From contig CAIOAN010000008.1 in assembly GCA_903855995.1 (NCBI GenBank), positions 248,001 through 312,000 on the forward strand: a DNA stretch of 64,000 bases, in the 5' to 3' direction. The DNA is from an uncultured Opitutia bacterium (lineage in GTDB: Bacteria > Verrucomicrobiota > Verrucomicrobiia > Opitutales > UBA953). Under the pieces are notes generated by a model, which saw only the letters and a program-made list of their open reading frames with translations, was not told the DNA's origin and made no database searches. Made by a program: the position numbers and the translations under genes. This document shows, piece by piece, positions 21,427-23,846 of this stretch (positions are counted from its first letter, which is position 1; every line of letters begins with the position of its first letter).

Positions 21427-21963
21427 TTAGAACTTACGGCGAACGCCGAGGGCCCAGATGTCGGAATTGACATTGGCGACTTCGGAGCGGGTGAAGCTGA
21501 GATCGAGCGAGTAGTCATGGGTCAGCATCTTGCTGATCGTCAGACCATACTGGTCGTCGTTATGCTGACGCACGTAGGTGATCCAGGCGCCGAAACCAGC
21601 GCCGAGGGCGCGGTGGAGGCTGAGCGTGTAGCGTTCGTCGGAACCAATCGCGAGAGCGGCGTCGGCGATGCCGGCGACATTCTTGAAGCGATAGCCGAGC
21701 TGGACGAGGTCCTGACCGTTGGAGAGATCACCACCGACCGTGGTGGCACCCTCGATGAAGAGATCGGAAGAACCGAGATAGGCGGTAGCGCTGACTGACC
21801 ATTCATTCTGGTGACCAGAAACGCCGGAGGTGCTCTCCTGCGAATAGGTCAGGGAGACATTGTTCGCGAACTGCGTCGACGGGGCGATGGCGAGCGGGGC
21901 AACGCTTGCAAAAGTCGAGGCGGCCAGGAGGGTCAGAAATCCAACGGAGTAGGTATGCTTCAT
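21427..21963 (-). CDS. Small outer-membrane beta-barrel-like protein
   Basis: A 178-residue protein with a signal peptide (about 1-20, THAYS-like basic start then FLTLLAASTFASVAP). The mature part has alternating hydrophobic/polar residues in 10-12 residue runs (VSLTYSQES, WSVSATAYLG, RYTLSLHRALG, YSLDLSFTRSE) and ends in a basic segment with terminal Phe (GVRRKF), the usual outer-membrane barrel signature. About eight strands would fit. Specific function unknown. It has its own promoter-like TATAAT just upstream and a strong terminator downstream, so it is monocistronic. Confidence 0.7.
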   Translation of the reverse strand: MKHTYSVGFLTLLAASTFASVAPLAIAPSTQFANNVSLTYSQESTSGVSGHQNEWSVSATAYLGSSDLFIEGATTVGGDLSNGQDLVQLGYRFKNVAGIADAALAIGSDERYTLSLHRALGAGFGAWITYVRQHNDDQYGLTISKMLTHDYSLDLSFTRSEVANVNSDIWALGVRRKF

Positions 21964-21978
21964 ATATTAGGGTAGGGT

Positions 21979-21984
21979 ATTATA
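21979..21984 (-). promoter_or_regulatory. Probable -10 box of the outer-membrane-type gene
   Basis: On the minus strand this reads TATAAT, 15 bases before the ATG at 21963. Transcription starting about 7 bases downstream would leave a leader of only about 8 bases. No good -35 box is seen at 16-18 bases. Confidence 0.45.
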
Positions 21985-22118
21985 ACGGACACCCGCCCCA
22001 CCCCGGGGTTCCGAGAAATCTGCCGCAGCCACCGCCGCGGCCGGGTTGACCTCCTCCCGGCCATGGGCCTGGAAAAAACCTCATATATTAAGAATATAAG
22101 GGGTTTAAGGGCCAAGGC

Positions 22119-22156
22119 TTGACAGTGAACAAGTTTTCATAGAACATGCGTTCACT
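22119..22156 (+). promoter_or_regulatory. lexA promoter with two overlapping LexA operators
   Basis: A perfect -35 TTGACA lies at 22119-22124. Seventeen bases later GAACAT can act as a weak -10. The GAAC-ATGC-GTTC palindrome at 22142-22153 is an exact match to the GAACN4GTTC core of Bacillus-type LexA boxes, and GAAC-AAGT-TTTC at 22127-22138 differs at one position. They are centred 15 bases apart. The second box ends 3 bases before the lexA ATG, so LexA would cover promoter and start site. Autoregulation follows from family knowledge. Confidence 0.75.
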
Positions 22157-22819
22157 ATGGAAGAACTCACCAAGAAGCAGGCCGCCATCCTTGAATATAT
22201 GAAGGCCCACGTGGCCGAGCACTCCTACTGGCCCTCCATCCGGGACATTCAGGCCAAGTTCCGGTTCGCCTCGACCAACGCCGTCTTCGGTCACCTGCAG
22301 GCCCTGGAACGTAAAGGCGTCCTCCAACGCATCCCCGGCGCCGCCCGCGCCTACAAGGTCGCCCCCGCCGCCCTCGTCGAAGACCTCTCTGACGTCGTGA
22401 TCCGCTACGAAGGGCCCGATGAAAACGTGCTCCAGCTCGAATCCCTCAACTACCTTGGAGCTATTCCAGCCGGCCTCCCCGATTACACCGAGTCCTCCGG
22501 AGTGCTGGATACCGTGCAGGCACCTATGTCAGCGAGTGCCCGGCGCCGCCCGCCCCAGTCATTCGCGCTCCGCGTCCGCGGTGACTCGATGATTGATGCC
22601 GGCATCGACAGCGGCGACACGGTTATCATCGAGCCCGGCCACCCAAAGAACGGCGACATCGTCGCCGCGCTGATCGACGGCGAAACCACCCTCAAGCGCC
22701 TGATCAAACAGGGCAACAAAGTCTTCCTAAAGGCCGAGAACAAGAATTACCCTGAGCTGCACCCGGTGAATGACCTCGTCATTCAGGGCATCGCCAAGTC
22801 GGTGATGAAATCAATTTAA
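22157..22819 (+). CDS. lexA: LexA repressor, SOS response regulator
   Basis: A 220-residue LexA. The N-terminal winged helix-turn-helix spans about 1-68 (TKKQAAILEYMKAH, YWPSIRDIQAKF, NAVFGHLQALERKGVL). The autocleavage site is Ala105-Gly106 in GAIPAGLP. The peptidase S24 domain has catalytic Ser144 in RGDSMIDAG and Lys180 in GETTLKRL. RecA-stimulated self-cleavage should relieve repression of DNA-repair genes, including lexA itself through the operators directly upstream. There is no Shine-Dalgarno, and the promoter lies so close that the mRNA may be leaderless. No other SOS gene is adjacent. Confidence 0.94.
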   Translation: MEELTKKQAAILEYMKAHVAEHSYWPSIRDIQAKFRFASTNAVFGHLQALERKGVLQRIPGAARAYKVAPAALVEDLSDVVIRYEGPDENVLQLESLNYLGAIPAGLPDYTESSGVLDTVQAPMSASARRRPPQSFALRVRGDSMIDAGIDSGDTVIIEPGHPKNGDIVAALIDGETTLKRLIKQGNKVFLKAENKNYPELHPVNDLVIQGIAKSVMKSI

Positions 22820-22862
22820 TCAATCGCACTTAATCCGTAGGCAGGCCAGAGAGGCTGCGTCT

Positions 22863-23846
22863 TCAAAGACCCCAGGACTTCAACTGGGCATCGATGGCGG
22901 CACCCATGATTTCGTAGCCCTTATCCGTAGGGTGCAGGAAATCCCCCATGATATCTTTCGTGATACGACCATCCGGGGCGAGGTACTTGACCGTCAGATC
23001 AATATAGGCGTCGGAAAACTTCGCGGCGCGGTCCTTGAGGATCTTATTGGCATCTGCCACCTTATTACGGGTGGCGTCAGGACGCTCCTGGCGAGGCAGG
23101 ATGCCGAGTAGTAAAATCTTGGCACCAGGGGCGCGCTTGCGAAGTTCGAGACACACCGCCTCGATGCCTTCAACCGTCTCCGGGACGGTCTGAATCTGAC
23201 CGACACCCGATGAAAGGTTGTTCGTCCCGATGAGCACAACGAAGGCTTTGGGCTTGAGTCCGGCAATCTCCCCATGCTGCAGGCGCCAGAGCACGTTTTC
23301 AGTCCTATCCCAACCAAACCCGAGATTGAGCGGATGATGCGGGGCAATGTACTTAGCCCAGGATTCCCGGCCGTTGAGACGTGAGGCCTTCGGTTCCCCA
23401 CCCCAGAAATGCGTGATGGAATCGCCGACCAGGATGACATCGGCCTGAATGGCACCGGGCTTATTCAACGCGAGGATTTCCTGATGGCGAGTCACCCAGT
23501 CGTAGGTCTTCCAATCGCGGTTCTGGGTCAGCGGAATTTCTGCGGTATTGACCGGAACATTCGAAGGTGCGGCAACGGTCTTAGTGATCACCGCCCCCAC
23601 CACCTTGCGGTCGTCGAAGAGCGCGGCCTTCAGCGTGCCTCCCTGGGCTAGTGAGACCGGCGCCAGATAAACCCCTGAGCTGAAATCAGGATCCTTCCCG
23701 TTGAGCGTGTAGCGGATGACATCCGTCGGTTTGTCGGGATAAATCACGGCCGACTTCGTAGCCGCATCATAAATCAGATCAAAGGCCGAGGCGGAAGCCG
23801 CGAGACAAGAGACCACAACGTAGGCCAACAGATGCTTAGAAGACAT
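22863..23846 (-). CDS. Secreted SGNH/GDSL hydrolase with N-terminal beta domain
   Basis: A protein of about 327 residues. Signal peptide SSKHLLAYVVVSCLAASASA, then a beta domain (about 22-95) like the chitobiase C-terminal or FN3-associated fold (VIRYTLNGKDPDFSSGVYL). An SGNH hydrolase domain follows with Ser143 in VGDSITHFW, the Asn-containing VVLIGTNNLS block, and Asp302/His305 in DFLHPTDKG. Such enzymes deacetylate sugars or hydrolyse esters outside the cell. Closest in style to PAF-acetylhydrolase-like GDSL proteins. The ATG at 23846 gives the signal peptide and follows a C-rich tract. Confidence 0.88.
   Translation of the reverse strand: MSSKHLLAYVVVSCLAASASAFDLIYDAATKSAVIYPDKPTDVIRYTLNGKDPDFSSGVYLAPVSLAQGGTLKAALFDDRKVVGAVITKTVAAPSNVPVNTAEIPLTQNRDWKTYDWVTRHQEILALNKPGAIQADVILVGDSITHFWGGEPKASRLNGRESWAKYIAPHHPLNLGFGWDRTENVLWRLQHGEIAGLKPKAFVVLIGTNNLSSGVGQIQTVPETVEGIEAVCLELRKRAPGAKILLLGILPRQERPDATRNKVADANKILKDRAAKFSDAYIDLTVKYLAPDGRITKDIMGDFLHPTDKGYEIMGAAIDAQLKSWGL

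Follow-up and report, generated by a model that had tools for sequence, protein, structure and literature searches.

The lexA gene and the elements before it

The window, the whole 64 kb stretch of DNA that was analysed, belongs to a genome of 2.66 Mb that is 97% complete. On its plus strand, positions 22157-22819 hold an open reading frame of 220 aa that matches PF01726 (N-terminal helix-turn-helix, 76.6 bits) and PF00717 (S24 peptidase, 82.5 bits), both over their cut-offs. The recognition helix reads ASTNAVFGHL, an Ala-Gly pair lies in GAIPAGLP (from residue 101), and RGDSM and TLKRL start at residues 141 and 178. The latter three motifs align with LexA proteins of solved structure, so that the Ala-Gly bond and the Ser/Lys pair are in place. 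By its domains and these residues the frame is a genuine lexA, and its product is predicted to be cleaved. Its nearest named relative comes from an Opitutae metagenome bin (96% identity). The ATG at 22157-22159 is the earliest ATG, GTG or TTG in the frame. A divergent ORF of 178 aa with no Pfam match lies upstream (21427-21963, minus strand), about 160 bp from the elements described below.

Directly before the gene, a -35 hexamer TTGACA (22119-22124, plus strand) can be read from the sequence, followed on the same strand by two putative LexA operators of 16 bp each, arms included, that abut. Operator 1, GTGAACAAGTTTTCAT (22125-22140), falls within the promoter spacer, and its core GAACAAGTTTTC (22127-22138) is one mismatch away from GAACN4GTTC. 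Operator 2, TAGAACATGCGTTCAC (22140-22155), lies over the putative -10, and its core GAACATGCGTTC (22142-22153), 15 bases downstream of the first, is an exact GAACN4GTTC. An inverted repeat is formed by the outermost half-site of each operator, AGTGAAC (22124-22130) and GTTCACT (22150-22156). Between the exact core and the ATG there are three nucleotides (ACT-ATG), and the outer arm GTTCACT reaches the start codon. The exact box, its one-mismatch copy 15 bases upstream and the preceding TTGACA are all where the initial annotation had placed them, and its claim that the boxes sit on the lexA promoter and touch the start codon is supported; the arrangement is conserved in the genus.

Conservation of the box at lexA, recA and umuDC

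The bare motif is no commoner than chance would have it. GAACN4GTTC occurs exactly once in the window and at 54 places in the genome, versus 60 for the reversed control; allowing up to one mismatch, the window holds 34 matches (expected 25 ± 5), and 7 of 100 shuffles gave at least as many. Its placement and its conservation do go beyond chance. From 37 sampled genomes of the genus we used 29 lexA loci, the other eight having given a fragment or no lexA match. The mean majority-base frequency was 0.88 in the 40 nt adjoining the ATG, 0.46 from -120 to -41 and 0.87 over the first 60 coding nucleotides; over the last 38 nt the 29 loci have 14 different sequences. TTGACA begins at -38 in all 29. 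Operator 1 shows small changes and is otherwise conserved; in the second box, 24 loci have the exact core and the remaining five AAAC-N4-GTTC. These five members have gained a base ahead of box 1 and make up for it in the stretch separating the two boxes, and the distance from TTGACA to the ATG stays the same (-38).

The same box is found at other damage-response genes. An exact copy, GTGAACATTTGTTCAT, lies 56 nt ahead of the recA ATG (recA at C11:34604), and an exact box in a like place was present in 30/30 recA loci of the genus (30 read from the 37 sampled genomes). UmuC is the only Y-family polymerase found in the genome (one IMS match); a UmuD-like S24 peptidase is encoded ahead of it, and the umuD box, AGTGAACATCCGTTCACT, finishes just before the umuD ATG. 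We fetched 28 umuD loci and kept the 26 with a start (24 from the genus and two from its sister genus g5), leaving out a locus with a split frame and another from g3. The box is exact in 23 of these 26 promoters and has one mismatch in the other three, the gap from the 12-mer to the ATG is 2, 4 or 5 nt, and TTG[ACG] stands 29-33 nt ahead of the ATG in every one. Mean pairwise identity was 0.43 over the last 35 nt (25 promoters) and 0.28 further up. As judged from their sequences, lexA and umuD have a common promoter-to-ATG geometry and contact between box and start codon, which recA, with its box 56 nt away, does not.

In this genome boxes precede lexA, recA and the operon of a translesion polymerase, with GAAC-N4-GTTC exact at lexA site 2, recA and umuD, and since it precedes recA and the umuDC operon the motif behaves as an SOS motif. 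The initial annotation had offered the Bacillus-type box as a search motif for the SOS regulon, to be looked for before recA, dnaE2 and imuB. This holds for recA, and umuDC carries the same box; the scan does not apply to dnaE2 or imuB, neither of which was found in the genome (97% complete, a single DnaE match, and UmuC beside UmuD as the sole Y-family polymerase), so that no second DnaE and no ImuB, the marks of an imuA-imuB-dnaE2 cassette, were found in it. Nor can the bare motif be used genome-wide (54 versus 60 places).

A longer, 16-bp pattern, GTGAACATNNGTTCAC, performs better: at up to three mismatches it has 48 and 56 matches on the two strands, versus 13 and 12 in the reversed control. 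The lexA boxes depart from the 16-bp consensus by 2 and 3 mismatches, the umuD box by 0 and the recA box by 1. At up to one mismatch the pattern occurs at four places in the genome, namely at umuD, at recA, within an RNase Y-like gene, and upstream of a short ORF that has rmuC behind it. The third of these, GTGAACAAAGGTTCAC at C6:113246, falls within the 3' end of its gene and was judged a chance match. The fourth is an asymmetric box, GTGAACATTATTTCAC (L212 1573-1588; G000 C12:410372-410387), before a short ORF with no Pfam family and then rmuC (PF02646); from its layout, this unit is a candidate for a further SOS unit. We also applied a crude ORF call to a set of 55 sites, made up of the listed GAACN4GTTC places, to which some inexact patterns and the boxes of lexA, recA and umuD were added. 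Among the matches listed, 49 fell inside reading frames and six between them, counts that are rough because the call misplaced the umuD box owing to overlapping spurious ORFs.

Six genomes of the genus (G006, G026, G035, G053, G054 and G060) have the recA box and no lexA match, which may reflect assembly gaps. In g2, a sister genus within the family of the window genome, eight genomes that are 90-98% complete and contain recA (G002, G007, G011, G015, G019, G023, G027 and G030) gave no lexA or umuD match, and the recA promoters of the two genomes read had no box; by gene content, g2 looks like a genus that has lost its SOS system.

Promoter-to-start geometry and proposed lexA autoregulation

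With a 17-nt spacer, TTGACA puts the -10 at GAACAT (22142-22147, plus strand), inside operator 2, and transcription would start 6-8 nt downstream, a few bases short of the ATG. The predicted start zone is 22154-22157 (plus strand), which would leave a leader of a few nucleotides or none. Because GAACAT matches TATAAT at only three of six places, a strict sigma-70 scan of 21900-22900 returned no promoter. In several sister families, TATACA or TAAACA is found at or adjoining the -10 place. Outside the families f3, f7 and f11 we examined 70 lexA loci, four of them from the genus: TTGAC is in range in 60 and absent from that range in 10, and 52 of the 60 leave 29-34 nt to the ATG. Leaving the genus aside, the geometry is kept in 48 of 66 loci. 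In g5, the lexA loci read have the GTTC arm in direct contact with the ATG. Longer gaps occur in seven f5 loci (46 nt) and one f68 locus (51 nt), and the near-leaderless geometry is therefore not universal.

We had also considered the missing Shine-Dalgarno sequences (0/29 lexA and 1/26 umuD loci) as a sign of leaderlessness. This argument was dropped, as the genome at large is poor in such sequences: Shine-Dalgarno 4-mers precede 8 of 40 window genes (taking the first ATG as start), compared with 20% of all plus-strand ATGs. The counts suggest mostly Shine-Dalgarno-independent initiation in the lineage.

Taking together the gene, its conserved boxes, the boxes before recA and umuDC and the near-constant distance from promoter to ATG, we infer with good confidence that LexA binds the two operators and represses its own gene, that RecA-triggered cleavage relieves lexA, recA and umuDC, and that the lexA and umuD messages start 0-5 nt before the ATG. 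Two LexA dimers would occupy the two abutting 16-bp operators, the first filling the spacer of the TTGACA-N17 promoter and the second covering the -10 and ending at the start codon. Bound LexA would keep RNA polymerase off; upon DNA damage, self-cleavage at the Ala-Gly bond, stimulated by RecA, would relieve the three units together. The closeness of promoter and start codon is the reason why both messages probably begin so near the ATG, and a leaderless or near-leaderless lexA message, as the initial annotation suggested, is supported by this geometry. Speaking against the overall picture are the poor -10, the lexA boxes' weaker fit to the 16-bp consensus than those of umuD and recA, the low identity among umuD promoters, the longer gaps in f5 and f68, the ten loci with no TTGAC in range and the genomes of the genus that have the recA box and no lexA match.

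The main competitor keeps the boxes as LexA operators and has the lexA transcript begin further upstream, with an ordinary 5' leader, the boxes then acting as a roadblock. The empty strict scan, the weak -10 candidate and the seven f5 loci with 46 nt after a similar promoter all speak for such a start. However, all 29 loci of the genus have TTGACA at one fixed distance from the ATG, sequence upstream of -40 is unconserved, and the TATACA or TAAACA of several sister families falls at or adjoining the -10 place, so that we regard an upstream start as improbable.

Near-leaderless starts of this kind have a precedent. The lexA of Mycobacterium tuberculosis is leaderless, the translation start having been found by experiment to be the transcript start (excerpt of PMC2897130), while here a near-leaderless start is predicted from promoter geometry. 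The excerpts of two further papers (PMC8072749 and PMC5243855) contain nothing on leaderless lexA.

Two LexA motifs within Opitutales

GAAC-N4-GTTC is the Gram-positive SOS box of Bacillus subtilis and Mycobacterium (excerpts of PMC3323433 and PMC9578287). As far as these excerpts go, the core palindrome and its spacing are the same here, as are its occurrence before lexA, recA and an operon for a Y-family polymerase and the Ala-Gly and Ser/Lys residues of LexA, but the host is a member of the Opitutae (Verrucomicrobiota), the arms are RTGAACA...TGTTCAY and helix 3 is STNAVFGHL. In the literature searched, whose coverage was partial, we found no publication on an Opitutae LexA box.

For Verrucomicrobia, the LexA motif reported by Erill et al. 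in 2016 is said to be TGTTC-N4-GAACA. The phylum is the same, as is the 14-bp register, TGTTC and TGAAC lying equally far from the dyad; the inner dinucleotide of the half-site, AA instead of TT here, and the LexA recognition helix are different. When extended, both motifs, TGTTC-N4-GAACA and TGAACANNTGTTCA, share one register, the difference lying in the inner dinucleotide of either half. Within the order, TGTTC-N4-GAACA is exact at recA in 6/6 genomes of f7 and f11, and of the 24 lexA promoters of f3, f7 and f11 (paralogues included), 15 have it exactly and 18 with at most one mismatch. The f3 recA promoters hold no exact copy and one with a single mismatch among six. We take the form seen in these three families to be the known Verrucomicrobia one. 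Their LexA helix is [AS]SQTAAMSHL in f7 and f11 and varied in f3, where ASPFAATRHL is commonest. The other LexA loci read STN[AGS]VxGH in 68 of 70 cases, the exceptions being f75 (SINAAVRHV) and one f80 member (STNAVARHL).

A second LexA match (E 1e-20 or better) was found in 3 of 197 genomes, all from f3 (G151, G159 and G328); a double match in G003 is one protein in two pieces. The second LexA-like proteins of these three f3 genomes (L375, L376, L377 and L378) differ in their recognition helices and in the palindromes upstream of their genes, such as GTGTCCGAATGGACAC before the second G328 copy.

In the LexA group outside f3, f7 and f11, the operators are graded. One perfect half-site in the pattern TGAACA-six bases-CA occurs at recA in 47 of its 56 genomes, genus aside, where shuffles give an expectation of 0.2; the partner half is often imperfect. 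Among order genomes without a lexA match, some of which are incomplete bins, it occurs in 1/20 (Fisher p 3e-10, a value that is too small, because the pattern was picked after part of the data had been seen and the genomes are related). Of the 47 matches, 38 have G at position 1 and 44 have C or T at position 16. The full palindrome is constant at recA in the window's genus (30/30) and in g5 (2/2) and rare elsewhere: outside the genus, 3 of 56 recA promoters have it exactly (the two g5 genomes and the f69 genome G364) and 17 of 56 within one mismatch. The f69 copy led us to drop the idea that the recA palindrome is strictly confined to g1 and g5. The lexA promoters of the group are less lopsided than its recA promoters, 35 of 66 outside the genus having GAAC-N4-GTTC within one mismatch in their last 100 nt (one exactly), compared with 3 of 24 in f3, f7 and f11.

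A pure direct repeat was also considered for the sister families. GAAC-N4-GAAC is found at 9 of 56 recA genes, the other partner halves ending in TATCAT, TTTCAT or TTGCAT, and the g3 umuD box, GTGAACATAAAATCAC, is asymmetric; a direct-repeat motif for these families is thereby weakened. Direct-repeat LexA motifs are described in excerpts on Alphaproteobacteria (GTTC-N7-GTTC; PMC3323433, PMC8565304) and Balneolaeota (TTACACATATTTTWTACATA; PMC7739468). Compared with what these sources describe, the GAAC-N4-GAAC of some sister families is alike, but its half-sites are 8 and not 11 bases apart, its second half is variable and the direct repeat is one variant (9/56).

One could argue that the true site here is still the Verrucomicrobia-type TGTTC-N4-GAACA, with GAAC-N4-GTTC a by-product of tandem sites. 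Besides the sites in f3, f7 and f11 (exact at lexA in 15/24, and in 6/6 at recA of f7 and f11), six f2 lexA promoters have TGTTCACCTAAACA, one mismatch away, and tandem LexA sites reportedly create other motifs, according to the same work of 2016. Yet the recA and umuD boxes of the genus are single and are GAAC-N4-GTTC, the inner pair at the window's lexA (TTTTC-N3-GAACA) has the wrong spacing, and TGTTC-N4-GAACA is absent from lexA and recA of the window genome. Outside f3, f7 and f11 it is exact in 0/56 recA and 0/66 non-genus lexA promoters, and within one mismatch in 1/56 and 6/66. We consider this explanation very unlikely. That the boxes are chance matches to a short palindrome, with no regulatory meaning, is scarcely credible: the motif is indeed unenriched in genome and window, but it is conserved in 29 lexA, 30 recA and 26 umuD loci.

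Phylogenies of both proteins bear on how the two motifs are related. In a quick, midpoint-rooted RecA tree of 33 rows (families f1, f2, f4, f5 and f6 plus f3, f7 and f11), f7 and f11 lie outside, f3 comes next, and f1, f2, f4, f5 and f6 group together (SH-aLRT 97); g1 and g5 are sisters (85), beside g3 and g4. The same two types separate in a LexA tree of 61 rows (88 and 96). In that tree the window LexA joins other Opitutales LexA and not the single Bacilli bin row; that row, on a long branch, is unsafely placed, as are all three rows from outside the phylum. This topology favours one change of half-site from TGTTC to TGAAC within Opitutales, after which recA symmetry became fixed in g1 and g5.

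We tentatively propose, somewhat short of even confidence, that a single switch from TGTTC-N4-GAACA to GAAC-N4-GTTC took place in the order, with no second lexA now beside the new type. It would have passed through partly asymmetric operators, with a fixed RTGAACA and a relaxed partner, and the palindrome at recA would have become constant on the branch of the genus and g5. On this view the Gram-positive-type motif would have arisen by convergence, with a change of helix 3 to STNAVxGHL as the cause. This single-switch proposal is weakened because 17/56 recA and 35/66 lexA promoters lie within one mismatch of the palindrome and one f69 recA has it exactly. A published model of LexA motif change has the gene duplicated and the original copy later lost (excerpt of PMC8565304), and a past duplication of lexA may have occurred here as well.

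At its core, the finding is ordinary biology: a probably autoregulated lexA. Two points go beyond it: the conserved near-leaderless geometry common to lexA and umuD, and the graded operators that may link two known LexA motifs in one order. On the matter of how a LexA motif can change while the SOS network stays intact, the order offers relatives with the old motif, with imperfect operators of the new type and with the full new palindrome, as well as relatives without a lexA match, in which the recA box is nearly always absent (1/20). With such graded relatives in a single order, the motif change lends itself to tests on a small number of purified proteins and pieces of DNA.
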